64,000 nt of DNA, taken from NCBI GenBank assembly GCA_002772535.1, contig PFDP01000014.1, forward strand, positions 1 through 64,000, given 5' to 3'. How positions within the stretch are numbered: the stretch's first letter is position 1; every line of letters begins with the position of its first letter. This document shows, in pieces, positions 10,012 to 25,948 of this stretch. Under the pieces are notes generated by a model. It saw only the letters and a program-made list of their open reading frames with translations. It did no database searches and was not told where the DNA came from. The DNA comes from Candidatus Peregrinibacteria bacterium CG10_big_fil_rev_8_21_14_0_10_36_19. GTDB lineage: Bacteria; Patescibacteriota; Gracilibacteria; UBA1369; LOWO2-01-FULL-3. Position numbers and translations under genes: made by a program.

Positions 10012-11907
10012 ATGACCAAAAATGAAAAAAAACTAGATTTTCACATAGGCAATCTTTTAAGGTCTGCTGAAATTGAATTTACCCCAAACGGAAGTAATAT
10101 TGCAGAAATACATGAAGCACTTAAAACTTCGTCTAAAAAAGGTACTGGCAGGGTTGGATTTCCAGAATTTACGGCAAAATCAGGCGATTTCATTTTGGTT
10201 ATAGAAGACAAAGCTGACTTGAATAAACAAGCAAACTACATAGATGAAAGTGAAACAGAGTTAGCAATGGATACTAAGTCAATTACTGATTATGCTGAGA
10301 ATGGTGCGTTACATTATGCCAAAGAGATGGTTGCTAAAACAAACTTTAAAAAGGTATTTGCTTTTGGTTGTACTGGTGATGAAAAACATCATGTGATTAG
10401 ACCGATATTTGTAAATTCTGATGGTTATGAAATCTTACAACAAGTAGAGAATTTTGAGAACTTTTCAGTGGAAAATATCGAAAAGTATTATAAATATGAA
10501 GTACTAAAAGAAACACCCCCAGAAACAGTTGAATTAGAAGAAATACTAAAAAAATCAGCAGAACTTCACGAACATCTACGAAATTATGGGCAGTTAGGGG
10601 ATTCAGAAAAACCGTTGGTTGTGTCAGCGATACTGCTTGCACTTAGAGAAAATTCAAACATTTCCAGTTCTCTTAAAGGTGATAGCGTGAAAACAGACGG
10701 TAGTATAATTTTTGATGCACTATCTACACATATGACACGTGTAGAGGTGAAACCAGAAACTAAAAAAGAACAGGTATTAAGCCAGTTTAATATTATAAAA
10801 GACCGAACGATTCTTAACCAAGTTGATGAAAGATTGCAGAAAACGCCTCTTAAATACTTTACTGAATACTTAAAGCAGAATGTGTACGCAAGCGTAGTTG
10901 CAAATACTAAAGAGGATGTTTTAGGGCGATTCTATGGTGAATTTATCCGTTACAGCGGAGGCGATGGACAAACTTTGGGCGTGGTGCTTACACCAAGTCA
11001 CATTACCGAGCTGTTTTGTGATTTAATTGATTTAAAGCCAGAGGATATAGTCTTTGATCCAACTTGTGGTACGGGAGGCTTTTTGATTACTGCTATGCAC
11101 AAAATGTTAGAACAGGCTGATGAAAGTGAAGTGGAAACAATCAAGAAAGACAGAATACATGGCATAGAGATTAGAGAAGACATGTTTTCTATTGCCACTA
11201 CCAATATGATTTTGCGAGGTGATGGTAAGAGTAATTTACTAAAAGATGATTTTTTAAGAAGAAATGTAGAGGAAATGAGAGCTAATAACTATTCAGTGGG
11301 CTTGATGAATCCGCCATATTCACAAGCGAAAGGCAAAGATACAGCGTATTTGTCGGAAATCCATTTTATAGAACATTTGCTTGATGGCTTGGCAGACAAA
11401 GGGCGTGCGGTTGTTATCGTGCCACAATCAACTATGGTTGGAAAAACAAGTGCAGATAAACAAGTCAAAAAAAGGCTATTAAAAAAGCACACTCTTGAAG
11501 GCGTAGTTACTTTGAATAAAAACACTTTTTATGGTGTAGGTACAAATGCTTGTATTGCCGTATTTACAGCTCATGTACCGCACAATCCGTTGAAGCATTG
11601 TAAGTTTATTAACTTTGAAGATGATGGATTTATTGTAAGTAAGCATATAGGGCTTATAGAAACCGAAAGAGCCAAAGAAAAAAAAGCGCACTTGCTTAGT
11701 TGCTGGTTACACGGTGCACCTGCTGATACTAAATTTATGGTTACAACCACGATTGAGCCAGATGATGAATGGTTACACTCTTTCTACTATTTCAATGATG
11801 AGATACCAAAACCAGAGGATTTTGAACAGACAATAGGTGATTATCTTACCTTTGAATTTAATATGATTATGCAAGGTAGAGAATATTTATTTGAAGATAA
11901 TAAGTAA
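10012..11907 (+). CDS. BcgI-like fused restriction nuclease and N6-adenine methyltransferase
   Basis: Single-chain restriction-modification enzyme, 631 aa. The N-terminal region holds a PD-(D/E)XK-type site: P51-E52, then GDFILVIEDK with E65 and K67. The spacing PE-x12-ExK matches, from memory, that reported for BcgI. The central and C-terminal region is an N-6 adenine methyltransferase: motif I DPTCGTGGF (349-357) and catalytic NPPY (433-436), as in HsdM. The specificity gene follows, with no hsdR in the element, so nuclease and methylase act in one polypeptide with a separate S subunit. It protects the element or host against foreign DNA and may stabilise the element. Confidence 0.9.
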   Translation: MTKNEKKLDFHIGNLLRSAEIEFTPNGSNIAEIHEALKTSSKKGTGRVGFPEFTAKSGDFILVIEDKADLNKQANYIDESETELAMDTKSITDYAENGALHYAKEMVAKTNFKKVFAFGCTGDEKHHVIRPIFVNSDGYEILQQVENFENFSVENIEKYYKYEVLKETPPETVELEEILKKSAELHEHLRNYGQLGDSEKPLVVSAILLALRENSNISSSLKGDSVKTDGSIIFDALSTHMTRVEVKPETKKEQVLSQFNIIKDRTILNQVDERLQKTPLKYFTEYLKQNVYASVVANTKEDVLGRFYGEFIRYSGGDGQTLGVVLTPSHITELFCDLIDLKPEDIVFDPTCGTGGFLITAMHKMLEQADESEVETIKKDRIHGIEIREDMFSIATTNMILRGDGKSNLLKDDFLRRNVEEMRANNYSVGLMNPPYSQAKGKDTAYLSEIHFIEHLLDGLADKGRAVVIVPQSTMVGKTSADKQVKKRLLKKHTLEGVVTLNKNTFYGVGTNACIAVFTAHVPHNPLKHCKFINFEDDGFIVSKHIGLIETERAKEKKAHLLSCWLHGAPADTKFMVTTTIEPDDEWLHSFYYFNDEIPKPEDFEQTIGDYLTFEFNMIMQGREYLFEDNK

Positions 11908-11908
11908 T

Positions 11909-12955
11909 ATGAAATTAGATTTACAAAATAAGGAATGGAAAGAATTTGAAATAGGTGTTGAATTTTTAGTAAAAAATTCTAAGGCTTATCACAAAACTGA
12001 GCTGAAGGAGTCTAAAGCTAGAGGGTTGGCGTATGTATCAAGAACTAATAATAATAATGGCATTGAATCAATTGTAGTTGAAGATAAAAATTTTAAAATA
12101 AATCCCCCAAATACAATCGTTTTTGGGGCAGAAAATGCTACTTTTTTCTACCAGTCTGGCAAATATATTACTGGTAATAAAATGTATTATATTCAAAATA
12201 AATTGCTAACAAAACAATCAGGTCTATTTGTGCAAATGATGCTGAACCAGAGTATTAAAAATTGCGGTTTTGGATATGGCAAAGGCTTGACTGGAACAAG
12301 AGTAATAAATAGAATCGTAAATTTACCGATTGATTCAAGAGGTAATCCAGACTATGCCTTTATGGAAGCCTACATGAAGCAGAAAGAACAAGGAAAACTG
12401 GATGAGTATAGACAGTTTGTAAAAAAGCGACTTCCAGAGTTGCAGGGTTATAAAGAAGTAGAAGCGTTGGAAAATAAAGAATGGAATGAGTTTGAAATAG
12501 AAGATGTAGCAGAAATTGAATCAGGTCGTGATATTTACGAGAAAGAAAGAATTAGTGGAAATATCCCTTATGTTTCTGCGACAGCAAATAATAACGGGAT
12601 TGGGTATTTTGTTGGTAATGACAACAATACCAAGGAATTAGGTTGTCTATCGGTAAATAGGAATGGCTCAGTTGGATATTCTTTCTATCACCCATACAGT
12701 GCTTTATTTTCAAATGATTGCAGGAAATTAAGATTAAAAAGCCCTTCTAAACATGTGGGGATATTTATTTCACAGCAAATTACAAGACAAAGAGGTAAGT
12801 ATGGTTATGGTTATAAAATGGGAACTGCAAGATTAAAAAAACAAAAAATAATGCTCCCAGTGAACCAAGCAAATGAGCCAGACTATAAGTATATGGAAAA
12901 CTATATTAAACGGCTAGAATATCAAAAATTAAGTAAATATTTGAGCTTAAAATAA
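11909..12955 (+). CDS. Specificity subunit (HsdS-like) of the BcgI-like system
   Basis: Directs the nuclease-methylase to its target sequence. It has two half-repeats, each starting NKEWxEFEI (near residues 7 and 191), each carrying a target-recognition domain (with TNNNNGI in the first and TANNNGIG in the second) and each ending in a helix with DYxxMExYxK. This is the two-TRD layout of type I and BcgI-type S proteins, implying a bipartite recognition site. I place the start at ATG 11909, 1 bp after the methylase stop; the frame is open upstream from TTG at 11891. Length is 348 aa. Confidence 0.88.
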   Translation: MKLDLQNKEWKEFEIGVEFLVKNSKAYHKTELKESKARGLAYVSRTNNNNGIESIVVEDKNFKINPPNTIVFGAENATFFYQSGKYITGNKMYYIQNKLLTKQSGLFVQMMLNQSIKNCGFGYGKGLTGTRVINRIVNLPIDSRGNPDYAFMEAYMKQKEQGKLDEYRQFVKKRLPELQGYKEVEALENKEWNEFEIEDVAEIESGRDIYEKERISGNIPYVSATANNNGIGYFVGNDNNTKELGCLSVNRNGSVGYSFYHPYSALFSNDCRKLRLKSPSKHVGIFISQQITRQRGKYGYGYKMGTARLKKQKIMLPVNQANEPDYKYMENYIKRLEYQKLSKYLSLK

Positions 12956-12973
12956 AACCGATCAGGAAATATT

Positions 12974-14473
12974 ATGAGGAAAGCAATAATACTAGCCAGA
13001 GTTTCAACAAAAGAACAGGAAGCAACAGGGCTTTCACTAGACAAGATACAAATTCCACAAATGCGACAGTATGCAAAATATAACGATTTTGAAATCGTTA
13101 AGGAATTTGTGTTTCAAGAAACAGCAAATCAAAAATTAAGAAAGAGGTTTGATGAAATGATTGCATATATAAAGGCTCAAAAGGGCATTGTAGCAATCAT
13201 TGCTTATAGGGTTGATAGGATGACAAGAAATTACAGGGATGCCGTTGAAATGGATAAATTAAGGATAGAACACGGGAAGGAGTTACATTTTGTAAATGAC
13301 AGATTAGTACTTACAGAAAATAGTTACGGCAGGGATATACAGGACTGGGATTTAAAAGTTTTCCTTGCTAAACAGCACATAAACAGATGTCAAGAAGACA
13401 CCCACACAACAATAACGAGTAAACTTAAATCAGGTGAGCAGTACGGACTAGCTCCTTTTGGATACAGAAATGTAAGAGATGAAAAAGGGAAGACAACAGT
13501 CATAGTTGATGATTTCGAAGCAGGGATAGTAAAAAAAGCCTTTGACCTTTATACCATAGGAACGCATTCATATTTGAGCATTGCGGAAAAGTTAAACAAA
13601 GAGTATCCGAGTTTGAAACTAAACAAAAGAAAAATGGAATTTATAATCAAGAACCCATACTATTACGGTGAAAGAGAGTATAAAGGGGCTTGGTATCCGC
13701 ATATATATACACAAATTATAACGAAGGAAATCTTTGAAATGGCTACCGACATAAGAAACGGAAGGACTAGATCAAATAAGAAAGGAAAACTACTAGGAAA
13801 AACAGGCTTATATAGGGGATTGATATATTGTAATGAATGCGGTTGTGCTTTCAGTCCATCAAAAAACCGACACAAGAAGCTCGGGAGGGAAGTTCAAAGT
13901 GATTGTTACTACTATTGCACAAATGCAAAAGTAAAGCATAAAAACAAGCCCAAAGGAACGAACGATAAAGAAATAACAAAAGAGCTGGCAAAAAAGTTTA
14001 AAGCAATGCAAATACCTAAAAAAGACCTTGAGTACCTCACTAATACATTAAGGGAATCGCACGAAGGCAAAAAGGAATTTACTGAAACAGAAAAAAAACA
14101 TTGCAGAAGGCAGATTGATATGTATCAAAACAGAATTGAAAAAGCCTATGAAGATAAATTGGACGGCAGTATTACTACGGAACAATATGACAATTTACGA
14201 ACACAATGGCTAAAGAAGAAGAAGGAATACGAAGCCAAATCAGAGAGGATAAGCAAAGCAGACGAAGAATACTATATTACCGCTTCTTACCTGTTAGAAC
14301 TGGCTTCTAGGAGTTATGAGCTGTTTATGGGTTCTGAACCCGAACAAAAAAGGGCAATTATCGCCTTAACACTTCAAAACCTTAAAATAAAAGACGGAAA
14401 GGTGCTAACAGACTGGCAAAAACCGTTTGATAGTATCTTCATTTCAGCCGAACGACACAAATGGGGTGACTGA
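12974..14473 (+). CDS. Large serine recombinase (integrase of the element), 499 aa
   Basis: Catalyses integration and excision through a Ser-DNA covalent intermediate. The N-terminal resolvase domain has ARVSTKEQ with catalytic S11 and AYRVDRMTRNYRDA with active-site Arg residues near 79-86. A recombinase domain follows (YGLAPFGYR, ISKxxF-like segments), then a zinc ribbon with C286, C289 and C311/C315 (YCNECGCAF...CYYYC), then a coiled-coil region (about 365-430) as in phiC31-type integrases. An AGGA lies upstream of the ATG. The last codons (KWGD-stop) lie inside the att core, and the stop TGA overlaps the tRNA-His gene. Serine integrases rarely use tRNA genes as targets. Confidence 0.93.
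   Translation: MRKAIILARVSTKEQEATGLSLDKIQIPQMRQYAKYNDFEIVKEFVFQETANQKLRKRFDEMIAYIKAQKGIVAIIAYRVDRMTRNYRDAVEMDKLRIEHGKELHFVNDRLVLTENSYGRDIQDWDLKVFLAKQHINRCQEDTHTTITSKLKSGEQYGLAPFGYRNVRDEKGKTTVIVDDFEAGIVKKAFDLYTIGTHSYLSIAEKLNKEYPSLKLNKRKMEFIIKNPYYYGEREYKGAWYPHIYTQIITKEIFEMATDIRNGRTRSNKKGKLLGKTGLYRGLIYCNECGCAFSPSKNRHKKLGREVQSDCYYYCTNAKVKHKNKPKGTNDKEITKELAKKFKAMQIPKKDLEYLTNTLRESHEGKKEFTETEKKHCRRQIDMYQNRIEKAYEDKLDGSITTEQYDNLRTQWLKKKKEYEAKSERISKADEEYYITASYLLELASRSYELFMGSEPEQKRAIIALTLQNLKIKDGKVLTDWQKPFDSIFISAERHKWGD
14461..14471. repeat. Right attachment repeat (att core) within tRNA-His and the recombinase gene
   Basis: ATGGGGTGACT, identical to 6009-6019. It serves three roles at once: attachment core, 3' end of tRNA-His with its encoded CCA, and codons for the recombinase C-terminus. 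Confidence 0.8.
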
Positions 14474-14539
14474 TGGGGTTCGAACCCACGACCCTCGGAA
14501 CCACAACCCGATGCTCTAACCAACTGAGCTACAGTCACC
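14462..14539 (-). tRNA. tRNA-His (anticodon GUG) with encoded CCA
   Basis: The minus strand folds into a complete cloverleaf: acceptor GTGACTG/CAGTCAC, D arm GCTC...GAGC, anticodon stem TCGGG/TCCGA with loop TTGTGGT (anticodon GTG), and T arm GTGGG-TTCGAAC-CCCAT. An extra 5' G (14539) faces C73 (14465), the G-1:C73 identity pair of tRNA-His, so the isotype is firm. CCA is encoded at 14464-14462. The mobile element abuts its 3' end and restores the gene. Confidence 0.96.
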
Positions 14540-14600: not shown

Positions 14601-14631
14601 TTAAAAAACTCCCCAACACTTGGTCGGGGAG
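14601..14631 (-). terminator. Rho-independent terminator of the small RNA
   Basis: On the minus strand, CTCCCC (14631-14626) pairs with GGGGAG (14614-14609) across an 11-nt loop, followed directly by six T (14608-14603). It separates the small RNA from tRNA-His. Confidence 0.85.
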
Positions 14632-14757: not shown

Positions 14758-15003
14758 TTATTTAGACATTCTATCGAAAACCATCTTATATTTAAACTCC
14801 AATCTCTTAGCCTTTTTATCGAGATTCCTTAGTTTTTCATTTTCAATTTTTAATGCATCAAGAACGCTAGTCAGGTTCTCAATTTCCATTACTGGTAGGA
14901 GTATTTTTGTCATTGCCTTTTCGTGTAATGGAATACCAGAGGTTTTTAAAAGCTCCAAAATTTCTAACTCTAATTGTTTTCTATTTTTTTCCATATAGTA
15001 CAT
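14758..15003 (-). CDS. Small coiled-coil protein, 81 aa
   Basis: No family is recognised. Residues about 38-75 (MEIENLTSVLDALKIENEKL, followed by RNLDKKAKRLEFKYK) have heptad spacing typical of a coiled coil. It is the last gene of the five-gene operon and overlaps the preceding gene by 23 bp, so translation is probably coupled. A second ATG at 14994 (residue 4) is an alternative start. It may be an oligomerising partner of the larger coiled-coil proteins upstream (inference). Confidence 0.7.
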   Translation of the reverse strand: MYYMEKNRKQLELEILELLKTSGIPLHEKAMTKILLPVMEIENLTSVLDALKIENEKLRNLDKKAKRLEFKYKMVFDRMSK

Positions 15004-15841
15004 TAATTAGTTCAGGGACATCACGCACATCCACCAGAAAAACCAATTCTGTAAACTCTTTTGCAGTAATTGCCTTATCGTTTCTATCGGCAAAATCTTT
15101 AATCATTTTTATTAATTGAACAACATTAGCCTTTTCAGTGTGTTTAAGATGTTTTTCCTTCACCATATCTGCAGCATTTTTAAGCATCCAATCCCCAACA
15201 ACAAGCTTTAACTTACTTTTAAGACCACCCAAGTCCAAAGCCGAATTAAACAGCTTATTTAGTGGGTAATTAGCAAAACGAGGTTGACCTAAAAGTGCAG
15301 CCAATCTTTTTTCAAACTCCACCTTATTGCTACCCTCACGCATCTTAAGTAGCGTTTCTACAACAACCCCAGACATTGCCTTTAAATCTTCTTTTTCACA
15401 CTTTACATCATCGTTTTTTGTATGTAAAACAATGGCAGTAAAACCTCTTTGCGCCTTTTGTTTAGTTTCTGTATCAAGTGCTTCATATACGCTTTTACCC
15501 AATAGAAAATCATCTAAATCTGCCTCAGCAGTTTCAGTATCCTTAGCAGGGGAGTTGTTAACTTCAAATTCTTTAGCAACCGTTTCAACGGCCTTTTCAT
15601 TAACTTCACTTACTGCCTCCGAAGCCTCATTTGTAGCCTCCTCTTTTTCCTTCTCAATCCACCCCATCTCAGAGGCAAAAGTTTTCATAGCAAGTAGCCA
15701 TCTTTCAAAAACACCTCGCTTCTTAGTTTTACCCTCCTCAAGTTTATCAAAAGCTTTTGTGGCAGCTGTAAGGACTAGAGTACTATTTTTCAGTGAGTCC
15801 GGCACCATTCCGCCTAGTTTTGATAACATTTCGTTTAGCAT
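14981..15841 (-). CDS. Helical protein of unknown function, 286 aa
   Basis: No family is recognised. The N-terminal ~75 residues carry LTAATKAFDKLEEGKTKKRG and a Trp-containing segment (RWLLAMKTFASEMGWIEKE), followed by an acidic linker rich in Glu, Ala and Val (about 75-105). The rest is a compact helical region with an alternating hydrophobic pattern. No signal peptide or membrane segment is seen. It starts 17 bp after the 1397-aa gene and overlaps the 81-aa gene. The opening MLNEMLSKLGGMVPDSLKN resembles the ELLGVDSLPESLKN opening of the 293-aa protein, hinting that the two share an N-terminal module. Confidence 0.8.
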   Translation of the reverse strand: MLNEMLSKLGGMVPDSLKNSTLVLTAATKAFDKLEEGKTKKRGVFERWLLAMKTFASEMGWIEKEKEEATNEASEAVSEVNEKAVETVAKEFEVNNSPAKDTETAEADLDDFLLGKSVYEALDTETKQKAQRGFTAIVLHTKNDDVKCEKEDLKAMSGVVVETLLKMREGSNKVEFEKRLAALLGQPRFANYPLNKLFNSALDLGGLKSKLKLVVGDWMLKNAADMVKEKHLKHTEKANVVQLIKMIKDFADRNDKAITAKEFTELVFLVDVRDVPELINVLYGKK

Positions 15842-15858
15842 ATTAAAGTTTACATAGA

Positions 15859-18800
15859 TTATTCACCCAATTCTTCAAAAAGATCATCCACCTCTTTTTT
15901 TGTTTTAGTGGTGGTAGTAGATGGGGTTGTATCATCAATTTTTTCTAATACTTTTTTCTTAACGTTTTCTTCGGTTTCAGCTTCTTGAGCATTTTCTTCG
16001 GCATTTTCTTCAGATGCATTTGCCTTTCTATAGTTTGAAATTTGTTGAACAATCAAACCACTACCATACCATAAGGCAGCGACAACAATTACATCACCCG
16101 CAAGCCTTCTCCATTTTTGACTCTTGAGAATTTCAACAGAAGCAGCAATGTTCACATTTCCAGTGCCTTCAATAAATGATTTTAATTTAGAGAGACTAGA
16201 CTTTATATTTGCAAGTTCCGTAGACGGGGCGGATAAAGGAGTATATTCAGACGTTAGTCTATTAACATCCTTATCCGCAGTTTCCAATTCTTGCTTCACC
16301 TTTTCATATTTCTTCTCAATAGCAGCAAAATTGCCTTTATCTGTAGATATTGATTGTCTTAATTTGAGAAGTTCAATTTGAGCTTTGGCATCATAATTTT
16401 TGGGATCAGTAGGTAAATTAGATTCCATGTCTTTAGAGGCATCATATTTAGCCTTTGCAGAGTTATACTCACCCTCTAAAGTTTCAAAGCTTGCTTTTAA
16501 TGCATCTCGCTTTGCAATTGCTGCATCAAGCTCAGCCCTTTTTCCAGCAGAGGCATCTACACCTCTTGATTTTTTAATAGCCTCAGTAGCATCATTTCTC
16601 GCTTTTGTTGCATTCTCAAGGTCTGTGCGGGCTGTATTTAAAGCCGCTTCAGCAGTAGTATATTCCGTTTCAGCTGTGCTATAATCTCTAGAAAATTGAG
16701 ATAATTTCCCGTCTGCCTCTAAAAACAATCTATTAATTGCGTCGTACTCTGTTTGCAATTTTGCAATATTTGATAGTGTTTTAGCCAAATCACTATTCTT
16801 ACTACTCATTAAATTTTCCAAATTCGGATGAGCTGCCTCTAGTTTTTCAATTTTTTTCTTTAAATCACCAACTTCAATTTTCAAATCTTCTTTCATTTCC
16901 AGATTTTCTTCTGTTGTATCGCTACCTAGAGATTCCAGTTGTGCAAGTCGTCTCTCAGAATCTGACAAGCTACTTCTTAAATTCTGATATTCTACATAAT
17001 TTGGATTAAGTAGTTCGTTCTTAATTTGATCTTTCTTAGCATTTGCTTCATCAAGCTTTTTTGAAACTTTATCCAATCTCGTTTTAGCTGAATTCTTTTC
17101 AGCGGTAGCAGTGTCTTTAGCTTTTCTTGCTGTTTCTTTAGCCCTTTTATGTTCTTTCAAATTTTCAATGGCTTGAGTTAAATTCCTCCTAGAATTTTCA
17201 AAATTTTCAAATACACTTTCGTCAACACCCACAGCTCTTGCCTTAGATTTTCTAAATTCTTGAATTGAATTTCTTAAAGCAGTTAAATGAATTTCAAGAT
17301 TCGTAGTGTGATCTCTCATTTCATCCACTTCACCAAGTTTTGCAAAATTGTCTAAATTATTTAGTAAAGCACGTTCATAACGATTTTTACCAAGCCTCAA
17401 ATCTGCAAGTTCAGGTTCCTCTGCAATTAATTTATCAATCTCTCTCGCAACAGAAACTACAATATCTTTAGCCCTTAAGTACATTTCTCTAATTTTTCCT
17501 CTACGAGAAATTGATTCTTTTGGATCTTCATTGCCTCTAATTTTTTCAGTAGCTCTTAAGTACATTTCTCTAATTTTTCCTCTACGAGAAATTGATTCTT
17601 TTGGATCTTCATTGCCTCTAATTTTTTCAGTATTACGAGCCCTTGCAACAAGATTATCTAATACTGCAACAGGCTTACCAGGAAGGCGGTTCCATTTATT
17701 CGCCCAGATATTTAAATTATCGGAAACGGAAGTATCTTCAGCACCGTTAGGATCATTTTTAGCCAATGACCTGTTTATTAAACCAATACCAAGCTTCAAT
17801 ATTGCAGCTTTCACTTTACCAAGTGCAAAACCTGCAGCATCAATAGGATTTACACCCCTCATAGAAAGCTCTGAACCAGTTCTTTTTAGTACATATGATC
17901 CCGTTAAAATTGGTACAATTAATTTCAAAGCAAGATTGGTACCATCTACCCAAGCCATACTTGGATTATCCCAATACTCAGCCGCTTTGATCATTACATC
18001 ATCAGAGCTAACTCCAAGAAATTCAAAAGCAAAAACCTCTGATGGATAAAGCATTATTGCCGAAAGTATTCCGGCAACTTTTTTATTTCTCAAAAGAGCA
18101 TCAGATATTTCAGAGGCCTTAATACCAAGACTCTTCATTCTTGGATCATTTGCTATACGTTCAGTAAGAATGCGGGTCAATTTTTCAATATTTTTCTTTG
18201 TTCCCAGTCTGGCAATCGAAGGCATCTTAGCCAAGATATCCATTAGAATTTCTCCTTTATTTGGTATGTTAGACTTAGTAACAGCCTCAGATAATGATTT
18301 GAACTCCTTTAAGCTCAGATTTATTGTGTCTTTATTTTTTGATATATCCTCAAGTTTTTCTAGATCAGACATAGCCTCTTTAAAGAAGCTGCCACCCTTA
18401 TTCAATTTCTCCTTCGCAACCCCTTCAGATTGTTCTGATCTCTGTGCCACACCATCAAGTTCAACTTTACTCTTTATAGAATTTCTCATTTTTCCAATTG
18501 TCTCAACCGCTTCTCTTGCAGCCGGTAAAACAATTCTTTTGCCGGCAAATGTTGCAACTCCTTTGCTAATATGTAAAGCACCTACAGTTATAAGAACATG
18601 TAATAACTCTCTATCACTAATAAATAAATTGAGCTCCTTATGTGCCCAAGAATTTTCCATGGCAGTTACCGCCAGCATAGTAGCAAGCTCAGCACTCCCA
18701 TGTGCAGCAAGGCTACCAATTTTGGCAATTAGTGGGTGGTTTATAGCAGTTATAGGAAACCTACTTTTCAAAGCTTCACACACTTTAGTAGCTGTTCCGG

Positions 18801-20052
18801 AACCAAATTTAAATGCACCTAAAACGGCAGCATTATGAAGAGCGGCATTAATAAAATCCTGTCCAGTCATTTTATAAACATCTCCACTCAAAACAGAACT
18901 AGTTGCAGTAAAAATTGAAGTTTCCAGAGCAAAACCGGAAGCCTTCGCTCCAGCCATTACTATATCTCCCCATGCTCCAATAGATTTCAGTGCTCTTTCT
19001 CCATTTTTTCCATACCCAACATAAAGCCCCACTTTGGAAAGCTTATCACCATACTTAATAGCATTACTCGCTACAATTCGGCTAACTACAGATCTCACTA
19101 TTCCTCCAACAGCTCCTGAAGCCAATATTAACGGAGCATTAGCCACCAATTCATCAACGATCATATCTGTGGTTGAATCAGAAAAATCGTGTTCATTTAT
19201 ACCAATAACTCTTTTATATGAATCCAGAATTTGAGCATCAACCCTATTATTACTTCTGAAATTATTTATATTGCCTTGTGCGACTGCAAAATTCTTCATT
19301 CTCAAAGCCAACTCTTCTTTTGAAGATTCCAAATACAAATTATATCTAATGTTAAATTCTTCATCACTAAGATCTTTCCCAGACTCTCTTAGCTTTTTTC
19401 TAAACTCAGATTTAATTTGAGATTCTTGTGAAGAAAATTCTTTATCCACTAGCCTATGAGCTCTTTCCTCTATAGCTTTACCAATTGAGCTAGTGTCTAA
19501 AATTTTTCTATATCTATCAAAATCATCTTTAAAATAATAATCCTCTACAAAGCTGCGCGCCTGCTCGTAACCTCTAAATTTACGCATCATATCAACCGCA
19601 ATGCGAGATTGTAAATCGGCAACAGATTCATTTGAAGAATCATACAATAGGGTATTCATTCCCAATTCCTCTAAATCCTTCTTCTGTAAATCACTAAACA
19701 TGTCCACAACCTTCTTTCCGCCTAAAATAGCTTTTTCAGCACCTTCAAGTGCCTTAAGTAAGTTTTCAATCCTGCCAATCAACGCCACTTTTTTAACACT
19801 TGAACTATAAAATCTACTCAACCACTCTCCAGTAGATTTTTTATTAGTAATGTCATCAAGCTTAGCTTCAAGAGTATTTCTCAAAAAAGCAACTTGCCTC
19901 ATTCTATTCAGTTCAGCTTTTGTAGGCTGCTTCATGGATTCTTTTCCAATTGCCCTCAATAGATTTTTTACAACAGCATCATTCATCTTGCTAAGCTCCT
20001 GCAGCGAAGGGTTAGCATATGATTGTTCTAATTTTTCATTTAATCCGTCCAT
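15859..20052 (-). CDS. Very large membrane-associated coiled-coil protein, 1397 aa
   Basis: No family is recognised. Residues 1-300 are charged and helical. About 310-520 contains Ala/Gly-rich hydrophobic stretches (APLILASGAVGGIVRSVV, LLHVLITVGALHISKG) that may be buried helices or membrane contacts. An exact 27-residue tandem duplication lies near 806-860. About 880-1310 is a long coiled coil of Lys/Glu/Ala/Leu heptads, as in tethering or tape-measure-like proteins. One clear membrane span (VIVVAALWYGSGLIVQQI) lies near 1320-1338, followed by an acidic tail of about 60 residues. The topology suggests an inner-membrane-anchored rod. No Shine-Dalgarno: a (TTTA)n tract precedes the ATG. Confidence 0.9.
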   Translation of the reverse strand: MDGLNEKLEQSYANPSLQELSKMNDAVVKNLLRAIGKESMKQPTKAELNRMRQVAFLRNTLEAKLDDITNKKSTGEWLSRFYSSSVKKVALIGRIENLLKALEGAEKAILGGKKVVDMFSDLQKKDLEELGMNTLLYDSSNESVADLQSRIAVDMMRKFRGYEQARSFVEDYYFKDDFDRYRKILDTSSIGKAIEERAHRLVDKEFSSQESQIKSEFRKKLRESGKDLSDEEFNIRYNLYLESSKEELALRMKNFAVAQGNINNFRSNNRVDAQILDSYKRVIGINEHDFSDSTTDMIVDELVANAPLILASGAVGGIVRSVVSRIVASNAIKYGDKLSKVGLYVGYGKNGERALKSIGAWGDIVMAGAKASGFALETSIFTATSSVLSGDVYKMTGQDFINAALHNAAVLGAFKFGSGTATKVCEALKSRFPITAINHPLIAKIGSLAAHGSAELATMLAVTAMENSWAHKELNLFISDRELLHVLITVGALHISKGVATFAGKRIVLPAAREAVETIGKMRNSIKSKVELDGVAQRSEQSEGVAKEKLNKGGSFFKEAMSDLEKLEDISKNKDTINLSLKEFKSLSEAVTKSNIPNKGEILMDILAKMPSIARLGTKKNIEKLTRILTERIANDPRMKSLGIKASEISDALLRNKKVAGILSAIMLYPSEVFAFEFLGVSSDDVMIKAAEYWDNPSMAWVDGTNLALKLIVPILTGSYVLKRTGSELSMRGVNPIDAAGFALGKVKAAILKLGIGLINRSLAKNDPNGAEDTSVSDNLNIWANKWNRLPGKPVAVLDNLVARARNTEKIRGNEDPKESISRRGKIREMYLRATEKIRGNEDPKESISRRGKIREMYLRAKDIVVSVAREIDKLIAEEPELADLRLGKNRYERALLNNLDNFAKLGEVDEMRDHTTNLEIHLTALRNSIQEFRKSKARAVGVDESVFENFENSRRNLTQAIENLKEHKRAKETARKAKDTATAEKNSAKTRLDKVSKKLDEANAKKDQIKNELLNPNYVEYQNLRSSLSDSERRLAQLESLGSDTTEENLEMKEDLKIEVGDLKKKIEKLEAAHPNLENLMSSKNSDLAKTLSNIAKLQTEYDAINRLFLEADGKLSQFSRDYSTAETEYTTAEAALNTARTDLENATKARNDATEAIKKSRGVDASAGKRAELDAAIAKRDALKASFETLEGEYNSAKAKYDASKDMESNLPTDPKNYDAKAQIELLKLRQSISTDKGNFAAIEKKYEKVKQELETADKDVNRLTSEYTPLSAPSTELANIKSSLSKLKSFIEGTGNVNIAASVEILKSQKWRRLAGDVIVVAALWYGSGLIVQQISNYRKANASEENAEENAQEAETEENVKKKVLEKIDDTTPSTTTTKTKKEVDDLFEELGE
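17474..17635. repeat. In-frame tandem duplication, 2 x 81 bp
   Basis: Segments 17474-17554 and 17555-17635 are identical over their first 78 bp and differ only in the last 3. Each encodes 27 residues, including EKIRGNEDPKESISRRGK. Near identity at the DNA level means a recent event or a collapsed or expanded assembly. Confidence 0.95.
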
Positions 20053-20057
20053 ATTTG

Positions 20058-20085
20058 TTTATTTATTTATTTATTTATTTATTTT
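20058..20085. repeat. Tetranucleotide tract (TTTA)6
   Basis: Six perfect ATTT units plus flanking T residues span the stop codon of the 293-aa gene and the whole 18-bp gap before the ATG of the 1397-aa gene. Unit gain or loss would change the upstream gene's C-terminus and the spacing between the genes, so it could vary expression by slippage. Confidence 0.9.
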
Positions 20086-20952
20086 GATTTTTAGCCTTTT
20101 CAGCCTTCTCTCTCTCTCTTTCTCTTCTAACTTCTTCATCTCTTTAAGATAATGATAAGAAGCCCTTTCCGACTGATCTTTATAATAATCAGATTTTTCC
20201 ATTGCTTCTTTGTATTCTTTTGACTTCTTATCTATAACTTCTCCCAATTCTTTATATCTTTCAGGGAGCTCTAGATGAGACTCAAAAACTGATCTTTCTT
20301 TATTTAAAACATCAAGATCCTTTTTATACTTACTTTGTAAAGCTTTAAGACCCTTAAGCCTCTCAATTCTATCCTTTAACACAGAAATTTTCGGCTTCAA
20401 CCTTTTAATTCCATCCTCTGCATTTCTTCTTTTCTCCATTATTGAATCTCTTTCCTTCTTGGCTCTTTCTATATCAGTACTAAGTTCATCAGCAATTCCA
20501 TGCCAAATAAAATGATTCCTAATATGTTTTTTAAAAAGCAATGCGAAATATCTAATTCTATCTGCAGCCTTAGCCGCTGTATACAACTCATACTCCTTCT
20601 TTTTCCTAACCTTGAAATCTGCATCAGACTCTCCAGGCTTTTGAACTGCCTCTGGAATGTCAGGTTCACCTTTACTAATTAAAACATCAAATCCTTCCCA
20701 AAAAGAATCCCATGCAGCAGCAAATCCGCTACCCTTACCAAAGTTTTCTTTGGCCAGTCTTTTTAAGCTTTCTTCTGCACTAGCAACTCCATCCTTTAAT
20801 GTCTTAGCTGCCGCTTCAGAAGACTCCTTCAAGTATTCTTTTGCAGACTCTTTGATGGACTCTTTTATAGCATTTTTTAGCGACTCAGGCAGTGAATCAA
20901 CTCCTAAAAGCTCCGTAAGCTTTGATTCAAAATTTTCACTTCCTTCAGGCAT
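20071..20952 (-). CDS. Coiled-coil protein of unknown function, 293 aa
   Basis: No family is recognised. The start is placed at ATG 20952, 1 bp after the upstream stop; the frame is open to TTG 20970. An N-terminal module (ELLGVDSLPESLKNAIKESI) is followed by amphipathic helices, then a Trp/Phe-rich segment (GFAAAWDSFWEGFDVL) and a coiled coil over the C-terminal half (about 155-290). The last residues KIKINK are encoded by the (TTTA)n tract. No signal peptide or membrane span is seen. Tight linkage to its neighbours suggests the five products work together. Confidence 0.8.
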   Translation of the reverse strand: MPEGSENFESKLTELLGVDSLPESLKNAIKESIKESAKEYLKESSEAAAKTLKDGVASAEESLKRLAKENFGKGSGFAAAWDSFWEGFDVLISKGEPDIPEAVQKPGESDADFKVRKKKEYELYTAAKAADRIRYFALLFKKHIRNHFIWHGIADELSTDIERAKKERDSIMEKRRNAEDGIKRLKPKISVLKDRIERLKGLKALQSKYKKDLDVLNKERSVFESHLELPERYKELGEVIDKKSKEYKEAMEKSDYYKDQSERASYHYLKEMKKLEEKERERRLKRLKIKINK

Positions 20953-20953
20953 C

Positions 20954-23900
20954 TTAAAAAAAGTTAACAATTTTATACTTCAAAACTTCCCACTGAGTTT
21001 CAACATCTATCCCCGGAAAACATCTTTCATCAGCCAAAATTGCTTTACCGATAGTTTCAAATTGAGTTTTCATAAATGTATCTTGCTCAACTTTCAGTTT
21101 CATTTTAGTCATTTTTTTACAGTCGCTGGTCTTTTGGAAAACCCTGACATCTTTAAGATATTCCTCAATAGCTTCTCTATTTCCTCCTTCAACTTCAAAC
21201 AAAGTATCCCTCAACTCATCAAGTTTTTTATCATAAAGCTTTTTTAATGAGGCAAGTCCAAGTGGGGGAACGTCCTCTAGAGGTTCAATACCTTTGATTT
21301 GTCTTCTATCAGAATTAACCCATTCGTCGTATCTCATTAAATTTGCATCCGGACTATTCAAAATCTCATCACGCAAATATCTAAGATAACCGGCCTTCAA
21401 AAATGGTTCTTTATCTTTCGCTTTATCAGATCCGGCAATTGCTATAGCAGTAGCCTTATTTAAATCATCTCCTTCTACATCAGATGCATAATCAGCAAAT
21501 CTCTTCATAGACCTTAATTTGTCAGTTCTACCTCCATGCATTATTTCGCTACCTTCACCATATTTGGCTCTCAAAGCAGCATCTAAAGACATAAGTGCTT
21601 GTGCATAACGATCACTTACACCAGCTTTAAATATTGGCTCAAGTACATCTTGTGCAAACTTTTCCGGAGTCCAGTGATCACCGGTTCTCTTAAAAGTTTC
21701 ATTCTGTGTCGCCATTTTTTGAGCAACTTTTTCTAGAGAATCTAAAGCAGATTTAAGCTTCGCACTTTGGATCTTTTCAGCATCTTCAAAAGTTGCAGCT
21801 TCAGAAAGTCTTCCACTAAAAGTGGCCAACATTTCAGCTTTTTTAAACTCTAAAATATAGTTTACATAGTATTCTTTCACACTTCCGTCCATGAAATCAG
21901 CATTTAAACCAGCCAGCCAGTTGTTAGACTGAGCGCCAGTTACAAATTTCTTCGCACTTTCCCCGGCATTGATAATAAAACTTTCCGGAGCATCTTCTAC
22001 AAGTCTCCTTAGATTTGTAAAAGTCCTATTTACTCTCTCATTTTCATTAAAACTTTCAGCATATTCACTTCTAAATTCATTACTCTTAAGTAAATCAGCC
22101 TGCGCTTCTTTAGTTATTGAGAATTTACTAGTGGCTTTATCAAAAGACACTTCCACATCTTTTCCAACAATTTTTACAAGGAACTTAGGCTCCTCTAAAT
22201 CCTTTTGGAAAGTTATAAGACCTTTTCTAGCCAATGGAGCTAAAATAGCCATATCTCTTTGTGAAGAAAGTCTATTAATTAAAGTTTTAGCATTTAAGCT
22301 ATCAATAACACCTTCTTTACTTGCAGTTACATCAACATTATCTCCTTCAATATTTACAGACATCATTCCGTTTTCCCTAGGAACAACCATAACATTAACA
22401 GTTCTTTCAGGAATGTTATACCTCTTATTTTCCTTTAGAGTTACTGTTGAAGTCCAATTTTTTCCATCAAATACCGGTGGTGTGAAAACTAATCCACCAT
22501 CACCATTCTCAATCATTTTATTTTTAACCTTATCAGAAAGCTTTCTAATAGCCTCATCTGCTTTTACAGCAGTGTAAAGACCTTTTTCCGCAGGTACTTC
22601 CGTTAAGAAGCCAGTACCGGGTTGAGTTTTTCCACCATAGTTTTCTTTCAAGTAAATTCTATAGTTGTCGCCATTTTCCACGAACATTACAGGCATACCC
22701 ATAAAGTAACCAGGATAATGTCCAGCTTCACCGGCTTCAACTCTAATATTTGCATTTTTACCTTCAAAAGCAGCATCAAGAGCTTTTTGAGCATCTTCAA
22801 CACCCGCCTTGCTAAGCATTCCTTTTTCACGGACACTATTTGTATATTTAGAAACTCCAAAGCTTAAATGTCTAAGTTTAGCCAACTTTCTCGCCCCAGA
22901 AGAGGTGATTGCTTGCTCGTAAGTCATTCCTAAGTAAGGAGAGCTTGGATCAACTTGCAATGTTTTTTGATAAACAGTTGGCGCAGCTTTAGCTATAAGA
23001 TAAAGCTGTCTTCCAAGTTTAATAACTTCTCTCTGTTTAGCACTATAACTCAAATTCACATTACCTGTGTTGTCATCAAGTCCTTTTTCACCAATTCCCT
23101 TATCAAATGGTCCAACCTCAGCTGCAACCGGGAAAATATCGGCAAAATTTACAGGATCAATATATTGAATCCCATCTTTATCGCTTTTCTTAAACAAATC
23201 ATGCAATTTAAGTAGATTTACTTCAGAAGAACGTAATAGAATTTCGGAATCAATTTCTTTACCTTTAAACTCAGGATCATTATCTATAAGCTTTTTAAAT
23301 CCCTCAAGAGGAGTACCTTTAACTTCGGCATTTTTATCTTTTAGTCCTGTCATTTTCAAAACATCGTATCCAGCATTCTTTAAGAAAGAATGTCCTACAT
23401 AAGCCGCAGCAACATAAGCAAAATATTTAGTCATAGAGCCTTCCGCATTGCCTGAGCCTATAACTCCTAATTTAGTTAAACTCTTCCAAATTGCCCAAAC
23501 ACCAACCGCATACATACCAGCAGTTGCGTAATCTCTATCCTGAATAGCCTTTTTAAATTTATCTACATTTGCACTTACAAAATCAGTAACTTTGTGTGCA
23601 ATAGGATCAGAATCCAAAGCTTGTTGTTTTTCAAGCGTTGCCAGTTGCTTCGATTTTAAAACAAGAATTTGACCTCTAAGATTTTGCAACTCTTTAAATG
23701 CTTCAAAAAACTGAGCACCTTCGGCACTCAAACCTTGCAATTCTTTCGCGTGACTAGCTGGATTTATAAACCAAGCCCTCTGAACATCATTAGATAAATG
23801 CTTATTTTTAGCAGGATCAACACCATTTTTGAGTCTAGAAAATACAGTTTGATACATTGGGTCGTTCACAGGTAGACCAACGCTTGCACATTCCTTTGCC

Positions 23901-24538
23901 GCAGCAATTACACCATCTGGTGTTGTAATATTCCAAGCATCTGGATTAACACTCAAATCGTCTTCCACATGGGGATTAAGAGATAAAGAGTCAATCATAA
24001 ATGGATTGCTCAATTCAAGATTTTTACTGAAAACTGCAGGCGCAAGAGGTGGAATCTCAGGAATTCTAACAGTCTCAATGCTAATCATTTGTTTTAATCT
24101 ATCCCTTTTTCCTGCTCCAGAAGGATTTAATTCAGATCTCATAGCATCAAGCTCCTCATATGCTTGGTTTACCATAGTAGCAGAAGGCATTTTCTCATCT
24201 GCAATTGTAAAAAGTAAATCTTCAAATTTTTGAGACCTTTTTTTAGCAGCCAGAAGCACTAATTCTTTCGAAATTGGCCTTGGCATCCCTTTAAGAGCGC
24301 TCAACACTTTTGTTTCTAACTCAGCCCATTTCCAAGCAATATACTCATAACTACGAGTTTTTTCAGCTTTTCCGGCAAATTTTGCATCTAAATCATTAGT
24401 AACATCTACAGCATCATCACCCTTAAGAGGATTCTTTAAATACTCTGAATATGGATTGTTTTTATAGTCATTCGCCGCTCTCTCAAGGGCAAAACTTGGG
24501 TTTTCTCCTCCGGTATTATTTGTATTTTTGTTATTCAT
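20954..24538 (-). CDS. Very large protein of unknown function, 1194 aa, first gene of operon
   Basis: No family is recognised. The N-terminal ~320 residues are soluble and helical. Around residues 335-390 two hydrophobic stretches (GMYAVGVWAIWKSL and YFAYVAAAYVGHSFL) may be membrane helices or a hydrophobic hairpin. After that the protein alternates helical regions with beta-rich parts (FMGMPVMFVENGDNYRIYLK, MVVPRENGMMSVNIEGD). A similar GMPV- and Y-rich motif appears in the aminotransferase-like protein at 4300-5940 (IMGMPVGPY), perhaps by chance. It has its own promoter with 17-bp spacing and leads the five-gene set. Confidence 0.9.
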   Translation of the reverse strand: MNNKNTNNTGGENPSFALERAANDYKNNPYSEYLKNPLKGDDAVDVTNDLDAKFAGKAEKTRSYEYIAWKWAELETKVLSALKGMPRPISKELVLLAAKKRSQKFEDLLFTIADEKMPSATMVNQAYEELDAMRSELNPSGAGKRDRLKQMISIETVRIPEIPPLAPAVFSKNLELSNPFMIDSLSLNPHVEDDLSVNPDAWNITTPDGVIAAAKECASVGLPVNDPMYQTVFSRLKNGVDPAKNKHLSNDVQRAWFINPASHAKELQGLSAEGAQFFEAFKELQNLRGQILVLKSKQLATLEKQQALDSDPIAHKVTDFVSANVDKFKKAIQDRDYATAGMYAVGVWAIWKSLTKLGVIGSGNAEGSMTKYFAYVAAAYVGHSFLKNAGYDVLKMTGLKDKNAEVKGTPLEGFKKLIDNDPEFKGKEIDSEILLRSSEVNLLKLHDLFKKSDKDGIQYIDPVNFADIFPVAAEVGPFDKGIGEKGLDDNTGNVNLSYSAKQREVIKLGRQLYLIAKAAPTVYQKTLQVDPSSPYLGMTYEQAITSSGARKLAKLRHLSFGVSKYTNSVREKGMLSKAGVEDAQKALDAAFEGKNANIRVEAGEAGHYPGYFMGMPVMFVENGDNYRIYLKENYGGKTQPGTGFLTEVPAEKGLYTAVKADEAIRKLSDKVKNKMIENGDGGLVFTPPVFDGKNWTSTVTLKENKRYNIPERTVNVMVVPRENGMMSVNIEGDNVDVTASKEGVIDSLNAKTLINRLSSQRDMAILAPLARKGLITFQKDLEEPKFLVKIVGKDVEVSFDKATSKFSITKEAQADLLKSNEFRSEYAESFNENERVNRTFTNLRRLVEDAPESFIINAGESAKKFVTGAQSNNWLAGLNADFMDGSVKEYYVNYILEFKKAEMLATFSGRLSEAATFEDAEKIQSAKLKSALDSLEKVAQKMATQNETFKRTGDHWTPEKFAQDVLEPIFKAGVSDRYAQALMSLDAALRAKYGEGSEIMHGGRTDKLRSMKRFADYASDVEGDDLNKATAIAIAGSDKAKDKEPFLKAGYLRYLRDEILNSPDANLMRYDEWVNSDRRQIKGIEPLEDVPPLGLASLKKLYDKKLDELRDTLFEVEGGNREAIEEYLKDVRVFQKTSDCKKMTKMKLKVEQDTFMKTQFETIGKAILADERCFPGIDVETQWEVLKYKIVNFF

Positions 24539-24569: not shown

Positions 24570-24598
24570 ATTATATCAAAAAACGGACAAAAAGACAA
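24570..24598 (-). promoter_or_regulatory. Promoter of the 24538-14758 operon
   Basis: On the minus strand, TTGTCT (24598-24593) and TATAAT (24575-24570) are 17 bp apart. The leader is about 25 nt. No other convincing promoter is seen until the small RNA promoter, so the five genes probably form one transcript of about 9.8 kb. Confidence 0.7.
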
Positions 24599-24676: not shown

Positions 24677-25948
24677 ATGGACTACCAAATTAAAAAACTA
24701 GAAAAGTCAGAATTAGAAATAACAATTACAGTGCCAGAAGAAGCATATGAAAAGGCAAGAGCAAGAGCTGCGGAAGAAGTATCAAAACAAGTTAAAGTAA
24801 AAGGATTCAGGCCAGGACACGTGCCACTTAACATCCTAGAGCAGCATGTTGACCCAAAATACATCGACGCCCACGCTCAAGAAATTGCAATTCAAAAAAC
24901 ATATGCTGAAGTCGTAATTAAAGAGAAACTCCAGGTTGTATCAAGACCAACAGTAAAAATTGAAACAGAGTCGCCTCTAAAATACACAGCAAAAGTATCT
25001 GTGCTACCAGAAGTGGAAATTAAAGATCACAAAGCCATTAAAGTAAAAAAAGAAGAAGTAAAAGTGACAAAAAAAGAGATTGAGGACATCGTAAAAGAGC
25101 TTCAAAGCAAAGTTACAGACTACAAAGATGTAGATAGAGCAGCAAAAATGGGGGATAGAGCAGAAATAGATTTTGATGGTTTTGATGAAAAAGGGGAATC
25201 GGTTCCAAATACATCATCAAAAAACCACCCAATAGTTCTAGGACAAAACACATTAATTCCAGGATTTGAGGAAGAAGTAGTTGGTTTAAAAGTTGGTGAA
25301 GAGAAAGAGTTTGATATTACTTTCCCTAAAGATTACGGACAAAAAGACTTCCAAGGAAAAAAACTAAAGTTCAAGATCAAATTAAATAGACTAGAGGAGC
25401 CAACAGAAGTAAAAATAGACGAAGACTTCGTAGAAAAAATTACCGGCAAAAAGGACACAGTTCAAAGTCTATACGATGAAATTGAAGAAAATATCAAAAA
25501 CAAGAAGGAAACAGAAAGTAAGCAAGAAATGGAAAATACATATATTGAAGAACTGCTTAAGAGAACTAAAGTAGAGCTACCTGAAAGTCTAATTCATGAA
25601 GAAGCTCATCATATTTTAGAAGATATGCGTCAAAACCTAGAAATGAAGGGGCAAGAATTTGACAAATTCCTAGAAAAGGCAAAAACAACAGAAGAAGAGC
25701 TACATAAAAAATATCAAGTAGAAGCAGAAAGAAGGTTAAAAGTAAGACTCGCTTTACAAAAATTAATGGAACTTGAAGAAATAAAAGTTGAAGATGAGGA
25801 AATTATGGCCGAATTTGAAAAAATTAAAGCTATGTATCCACCAACCAGCCATGCTGAGTTGCAGAAAGAATTTGATCAAGGAAGTATTAGAACTCAACTA
25901 GGTAATAAAATTGCCCTGTCTAAGCTGTTTGATAAGGTGTTGGCTTAA
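24677..25948 (+). CDS. tig: Trigger factor, ribosome-associated chaperone
   Basis: Binds L23 at the ribosome exit tunnel and shields nascent chains, with peptidyl-prolyl isomerase activity. The 423-aa protein has the N-terminal ribosome-binding signature VKGFRPGHVPLNILEQ (about 43-58), a FKBP domain near 160-240 (DRAEIDFDGF...LIPGFEEEVVGLKVGEEKEF) and a helical C-terminal chaperone domain. Length and order are normal. It is a single-gene unit with its own promoter. clpP and clpX, frequent neighbours of tig in other bacteria, are absent here. Confidence 0.97.
   Translation: MDYQIKKLEKSELEITITVPEEAYEKARARAAEEVSKQVKVKGFRPGHVPLNILEQHVDPKYIDAHAQEIAIQKTYAEVVIKEKLQVVSRPTVKIETESPLKYTAKVSVLPEVEIKDHKAIKVKKEEVKVTKKEIEDIVKELQSKVTDYKDVDRAAKMGDRAEIDFDGFDEKGESVPNTSSKNHPIVLGQNTLIPGFEEEVVGLKVGEEKEFDITFPKDYGQKDFQGKKLKFKIKLNRLEEPTEVKIDEDFVEKITGKKDTVQSLYDEIEENIKNKKETESKQEMENTYIEELLKRTKVELPESLIHEEAHHILEDMRQNLEMKGQEFDKFLEKAKTTEEELHKKYQVEAERRLKVRLALQKLMELEEIKVEDEEIMAEFEKIKAMYPPTSHAELQKEFDQGSIRTQLGNKIALSKLFDKVLA

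Follow-up and report, generated by a model that had tools for sequence, protein, structure and literature searches.

Giant proteins have been reported from Candidatus Peribacter riflensis (PMC4736985) and from Vampirococcus lugosii (PMC8080830), which belong to the same broad bacterial group as the organism considered here. In the portions of these accounts available to us, the large extracellular proteins of Ca. P. riflensis are described as cysteine-rich and mostly equipped with signal peptides, with several giants differing by small indels between strains (PMC4736985), and those of Vampirococcus as predicted giant membrane proteins (PMC8080830). The same portions make no mention of the operon described below, of its place beside tig (the gene for trigger factor) or of its N-terminal modules, and it is by description that the present proteins, likewise very large, are set apart from them. 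Preprints aside, the literature searched gave no account of trigger factor with gene clusters of the Candidate Phyla Radiation (CPR), nor of DUF5663, a family that is weakly matched by one gene of the locus in relatives.

The locus lies in a window of 64,000 nucleotides (that is, the whole stretch of DNA analysed, positions 1 to 64,000 of contig PFDP01000014.1) from the 1.07-Mb, 99% complete genome of a Candidatus Peregrinibacteria bacterium. Five open reading frames, P1 to P5, follow one another from 24538 to 14758 and encode proteins of 1194, 293, 1397, 286 and 81 amino acids (P1, 20954–24538; P2, 20071–20952; P3, 15859–20052; P4, 14981–15841; P5, 14758–15003), with gaps of 1 bp (P1/P2), 18 bp (P2/P3) and 17 bp (P3/P4). 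The overlap of P4 and P5 is 23 bp from the start of the 81-residue form and 14 bp from the ATG at 14994, which is probably the true start (78 amino acids), being the better fit to homologues. The ORF coordinates bear out the sizes and tight spacing given in the first-pass annotation and add that all five genes are on the minus strand, which it had left unstated. Its single promoter is less secure: a promoter-like site with an extended –10 element (TTGTCT-17-TATAAT with TG before the –10; 24570–24598, minus strand) does stand 31 nucleotides before the P1 ATG, but the region holds 29 such sites against 29.0 in shuffled sequence, and because the count equals that of the shuffles, it is by its position that the site is supported. 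At the other end, a terminator-like site (a 9-bp stem followed by TTTTTT; 14609–14631, minus strand) closes the operon ahead of the gene for tRNA-His (14462–14538, minus strand). Upstream, tig (24677–25948, plus strand) is divergent from P1 and forms the fixed anchor of the locus. Beyond the tRNA, plus-strand genes at 10012–14473 (a type I methylase-like gene identified by eye, one resembling a specificity gene, and one for a serine recombinase with matches to Resolvase at 3.3e-13 and Recombinase at 2.5e-9) end at tRNA-His and resemble an integrated restriction–modification island; that the operon holds a constant position next to tig in many genera speaks against its being part of a mobile element on that side. 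Elsewhere in the window, at 49381–51291 (minus strand), a protein combines S-layer homology domains (8.6e-32) with Peptidase_M23 (5.3e-24).

None of the five proteins matched Pfam, NCBIfam, PHROGs or PADLOC above cut-off, a search of PDB sequences with a 13-member P1 profile gave no match, and the 13 members scanned singly against Pfam gave none that convinced. The earlier description of these proteins as uncharacterised thus holds for every library searched, coiled-coil noise aside. The many sub-threshold Pfam names were discarded as reflecting composition, as was an identification of P3 with SMC, Rad50 or JetC: the matches (NCBIfam SMC at E 8e-8, but with a score of 30 against a cut-off of 567; PADLOC JetC3 at 8e-5) fall in the coiled-coil region only, and no ATPase head was matched. 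Type IV secretion families in Pfam and NCBIfam were likewise without a match to the operon proteins. The novelty of the locus therefore consists in there being no matching family or described system among those searched, and is independent of any function that we assign to it.

P1, encoded by the first gene and the most conserved of the giants, combines a hydrophobic hairpin with three β4–α units and a helical C-terminal module. The hairpin (residues 338–396, with the motif KNAGYD; 23351–23527, minus strand), noted in the first-pass annotation, is weak by hydropathy (peak 1.13); its standing comes rather from conservation in the family alignments, with a co-linear trace in family f10. AlphaFold gave a mean pLDDT of 53 for full-length P1 and of 70 for residues 588–862, in which the three successive β4–α units were modelled (residues 605–830; 22049–22726, minus strand). 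The full-length model had no fold match, which does not imply a novel fold. The fold search covered P1 among the five proteins. For residues 588–862 the best Foldseek match was MED14 (E 6.8e-3, rmsd 14), and the resemblance to RWD-like folds (MED14, Ctf19) was weak, the best Z score (5.0) being to another protein; we draw no inference from so weak a resemblance. In two assemblies (G020:C2:151240-154875 and G007:C82:10569-14137) P1 is broken by an in-frame stop or split, possibly through assembly error.

Among the 30 genomes of the family, P1 is present in 21 (15 of the 17 good ones) at approximately 18–34% identity, and the order P1–P2–P3–P4–P5, divergent from tig, is kept in many genera; one genome (G005) has the locus arranged differently. 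Since the gene order recurs so widely, the run is no chance arrangement of reading frames. Several relatives have two extra genes between tig and P1, namely X (approximately 925–1443 amino acids in complete copies) and Y (approximately 124–159 amino acids). Neither was detected in the present genome, of which 99.7% was read. Y is the gene that weakly matches DUF5663 (PF18908; E 0.0036 in the search of genome G036 and 0.14 for the protein of family f14), with all Y matches below the curated cut-off and no match among the window proteins. To follow P1 further, a family-only profile was run against the reading frames of other families together with reversed decoys, and it matched a giant divergent from tig in four more families of the order, f14 (6.3e-12), f13 (1.5e-5), f10 (2.9e-4 and 5.4e-4) and f15 (0.0034), against a best decoy of 0.17; these are weaker P1 relatives at the same spot, and in the f10 giant the matching parts, the hairpin and the C-terminal module, are co-linear with P1. 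The Y of f14 was matched at 4.8e-6. E-values for sequences already inside iterated profiles are inflated and were left out of the evidence. In other families, X-, Y- and giant-like reading frames occupy the same place, and no link by sequence to the operon genes was found for them; the f20 and f22 genomes examined have no such gene run. A scan of genome contigs with the single protein gave no match, and the 13-sequence alignment was too diverse to help; a tighter alignment led to five named loci, and the named relatives of P1 belong to Ca. Peregrinibacteria and Ca. Peribacteria metagenome-assembled genomes. Linked homologues in constant order and place beside tig were thus found in many genera, neither scattered without linkage nor matching unrelated known families, which supports the earlier supposition that genes kept together in so compact a genome share a job. 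We take the operon to be genuine and maintained by vertical descent, and its being a conserved apparatus is well supported.

Two further observations concern this neighbourhood. In family f7 (L085, L089) the tig-linked cluster is divided between strands, its second half being read from the other one; giants of 2069 and 2545 amino acids occur there, as does a protein of 86–90 amino acids that is weakly P5-like (E 0.02–0.04). In several other families, a gene resembling those for secreted zinc metallopeptidases (Peptidase_Mx) stands a short distance beyond the cluster on its downstream side (best 2.1e-7; L079:8160-9035, L082:9100-9909, L075:7494-8183, L092:8339-9232 and L081:10513-11415).

The genes have nevertheless changed quickly relative to their surroundings. 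Compared with the gene of the window, family homologues have a median identity of 54.5% for tig and of 56–66% for three other neighbours, against 24–26% for P1–P4 and 40% for the small P5, which is the best conserved of the five by sequence; the medians for P2–P4 count only loci that BLAST could align. On this measure, divergence within the operon runs at roughly double the rate of the neighbouring genes. Homology of the giants at the P3 position across genera is only partly shown: those of g3, g14 and L035 form one group (hhalign in local mode, probability 99–100), and the window P3 forms a second with L025 and L030, with a weak link between the two groups (probability 15, E 0.0018).

The first-pass annotation had also proposed that P2, a helical protein, and P4 open with similar N termini and that a shared N-terminal module be sought. 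That pairing failed, as profiles of P4 and of its N-terminal module do not match P2 in this genome, and a different kind of sharing came to light, in which two short modules recur at the start of other proteins. The first is a tag, FKExR[LF][VI][FY], with which P1, P2 and sometimes P3 of relatives open, and which is followed by an acidic or proline-rich stretch; it also opens a lysozyme/GDSL protein and other signal-less giants, two of them in the present genome, where P1–P4 themselves have no tag. A position-specific scoring matrix trained outside genus g14 and applied to the sequence read from genome G013 gave six N-terminal sites at threshold 12 against 0.96 expected; two are operon proteins and two look false (UvrC and a spurious 101-aa reading frame), false positives of a kind that the matrix does yield. 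The convincing cases outside the operon are giants of 2207 and 849 amino acids, to which inspection by eye adds a third of 1894 amino acids. In the present genome the top N-terminal scores fall to giants of 2579 amino acids (20.5; G000:C3:253315-261054, or L174:9315-17051, plus strand) and 849 amino acids (20.6; 380448–382997, or L180:16448-18994, plus strand), two seen against 0.17 expected, neither of which has a Pfam family; the former is encoded in the neighbourhood in which G013 has its 2207-aa gene. Across 145 genomes of the class, there were twelve tag matches outside the family at E ≤ 0.0022 where approximately 0.3 were expected, counted irrespective of their place in the reading frame; those from f19 are only partly independent, since one f19 sequence was included in the model. 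In L063, a case from another order whose start was read, the tag opens the protein. The 2579-aa gene of the present genome is followed by that of a 1562-aa protein with a signal-like N terminus, and a similar arrangement is seen in G013. In G013, moreover, the gene for the tagged 1894-aa giant is immediately preceded, and overlapped, by one for a weakly P5-like protein of 104 amino acids (E 0.0049), the pair (L120:9391-15373, minus strand) being perhaps a second module of a small and a giant protein.

The second module is the N-terminal part of P4 (residues 1–69, of which approximately the first 60 are shared with other proteins; 15635–15841, minus strand), and it is this module, together with the tag, that ties the operon to enzymes that cut peptidoglycan. 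The tagged 849-aa protein of G013 matches Phage_lysozyme2 (PF18013, 1.7e-6, over cut-off) and GDSL (PF13472, 1.3e-7, just under), and has relatives in 24 of the 30 family genomes. The tag opens its homologues in G022, G027, G029, G023, G006 and G004, the last three of which have no Pfam match. In genus g3, a profile built from P4 alone found the P4 module at the start of lysozyme genes (1e-8 to 1e-11) and of a tandem VanY gene (1e-12 to 1e-14), the enzyme matches spanning 1.5e-8 to 1.5e-14 and the nearest other match lying at 0.57; by Pfam these enzymes are Phage_lysozyme2 (1.8e-12) and VanY, a D-Ala-D-Ala carboxypeptidase (1.6e-15). The same kind of enzyme thus bears the tag or the P4 module according to genus. 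The present genome has this module once more, on a protein of 345 amino acids (C15:28204-29241; E 0.0054 with a wider profile, next real match 0.15, best decoy 1.2) that has no match in Pfam or the PDB; the C-terminal part of this protein (L220:8204-9238, plus strand) resembles a cysteine amidase by eye, with no confirmation from the libraries. The lysozyme/GDSL protein of this genome (C3:175277-177079) starts with neither tag nor P4 module, and because P1–P4 are also untagged, the link in this genome rests on the P4 module and that one 345-aa protein. We regard the link between operon and wall enzymes as moderate. The modules are short (approximately 7–10 residues for the tag and 60 for the P4 module), and short amphipathic segments may also appear or be disseminated from unrelated causes.

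The enzymes sharing these openings lack Sec signals, as do the large operon proteins of the window, for which hydropathy indicated no signal peptide. Taking the maximum hydropathy of the first 40 residues as the test and secreted metallopeptidases as controls, P1, P3 and P4 of the family reach at most 1.38 against 2.04–2.68 for the controls, the exceptions among relatives being one P2 (2.15) and one P5 (1.78). P3 has hydrophobic central stretches, a long coiled coil, a C-terminal membrane span (residues 1317–1335; 16048–16104, minus strand) and an acidic tail. The coiled coil and terminal span are as first annotated; that the span is single is uncertain, as further hydrophobic stretches lie near residues 301, 483, 662, 704 and 741. 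The initial suggestion of a surface or envelope-spanning apparatus is plausible in view of these segments, the P1 hairpin and the presence of the P4 module on peptidoglycan enzymes, but it has to accommodate the absence of Sec signals by hydropathy. Export draws no support from any structure or family, the AlphaFold models being poor to moderate, and no exporter was identified; a VirD4-like type IV secretion coupling protein in the same window (53520–56000, minus strand; TrwB_AAD_bind 1.1e-9, T4SS-DNA_transf 1.2e-8), an ATPase that is not part of the operon locus, is a possible candidate for exporting signal-less proteins.

Because peptidoglycan enzymes without Sec signals share their N termini with proteins of the operon in which membrane segments occur, a scaffold for docking, and perhaps for export, is the simplest account. 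We suggest, tentatively and at somewhat less than even confidence, that the five genes specify a scaffold associated with the envelope and peculiar to Peregrinibacteria, which holds enzymes that cut peptidoglycan in position and may also export them. P1, through its hairpin, and P3, through its membrane spans and coiled coil, would form the membrane-anchored scaffold, with P2, P4 and the small P5 as assembly or adaptor parts, and the Sec-less enzymes would join it through shared N-terminal address modules (that is, the P4 type in g3 and FKExR[LF][VI][FY] in other genera). The wall opened would most likely belong to a host or prey cell in contact, or else to the cell itself at the point of crossing by the device. 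That shared modules mean co-localisation is an inference, as are membrane topology, export and the target wall.

The lack of Sec signals by hydropathy, the coiled coil and membrane anchoring of P3 and the fast change in length and sequence would also suit a cytoskeletal or polar scaffold inside the cell, in which coiled-coil giants beneath the membrane serve shape, division or pole organisation, and modules dock proteins from within so that wall enzymes are positioned before release. Such a scaffold would act in the manner of the Mycoplasma terminal-organelle proteins, to which these proteins are unrelated. We consider it possible and rather doubtful, as the lysozyme/GDSL and VanY enzymes that begin with these modules depend on peptidoglycan as substrate, and peptidoglycan lies beyond the membrane. 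Rapid change, together with an in-frame 81-bp tandem duplication in P3 (27 residues twice, 98% matches; 17469–17632, minus strand), might instead mark surface adhesins or fibres that coat the cell for attachment, like the giants reported in both groups introduced above. This we judge unlikely: the Rifle proteins, in the portions of that account available to us, are cysteine-rich and mostly have signal peptides (PMC4736985), whereas P1–P4 of the window contain 0–3 cysteines each and no signal by hydropathy. The adjacency to tig, kept across most families examined, and the shortness of the modules, which are missing from several members, leave a small chance that the operon is conserved for another function (such as the folding of proteins, or stress at the membrane, in the vicinity of trigger factor) and that the sharing with wall enzymes is incidental; against this stand the out-of-sample E-values of the P4 module (1e-8 to 1e-14) and the occurrence of both module types on the same enzyme kind in different genera. 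Finally, a phage-derived device (for example, a reduced tail with the long, hydrophobically patched P3 as tape measure and a phage-tail lysozyme at its tip) is very improbable. In its favour are the Phage_lysozyme2 domain (PF18013, phage tail lysozyme), which is in an unlinked enzyme that shares the N-terminal modules and in no operon protein, and weak PHROG tail matches (0.015 for P3, in the coiled coil; 2.8e-4 for the lysozyme protein). Against it, no phage sheath family (PF04984) occurs in the genome in a search that detected its controls, and the locus, unlike a prophage, is fixed beside tig over many genera.

If the envelope-associated scaffold is the right reading, it may belong to something broader. 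It is conceivable, as a speculation that we hold to be on the unlikely side, that Peregrinibacteria, and perhaps the wider class, possess a Sec-independent route of export or delivery, in which the tag and the P4 module would be the address signals and the tig-linked operon would build the machine; the cargo, directed against a host or prey cell wall, would include giant coiled-coil proteins as well as a VanY carboxypeptidase and a phage-tail lysozyme/GDSL enzyme. A locus that is fixed across much of an order, consists of proteins unlike those described and is tied to peptidoglycan enzymes brings down to named genes and short sequences the question of how these small bacteria, most of them known only from their genomes, open a partner's wall or assemble a surface device. 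Should the tag prove to be an export signal, many unannotated giants of the class could be sorted by destination, and the locus, read as proposed here, would be a hint of an undescribed wall-crossing device.
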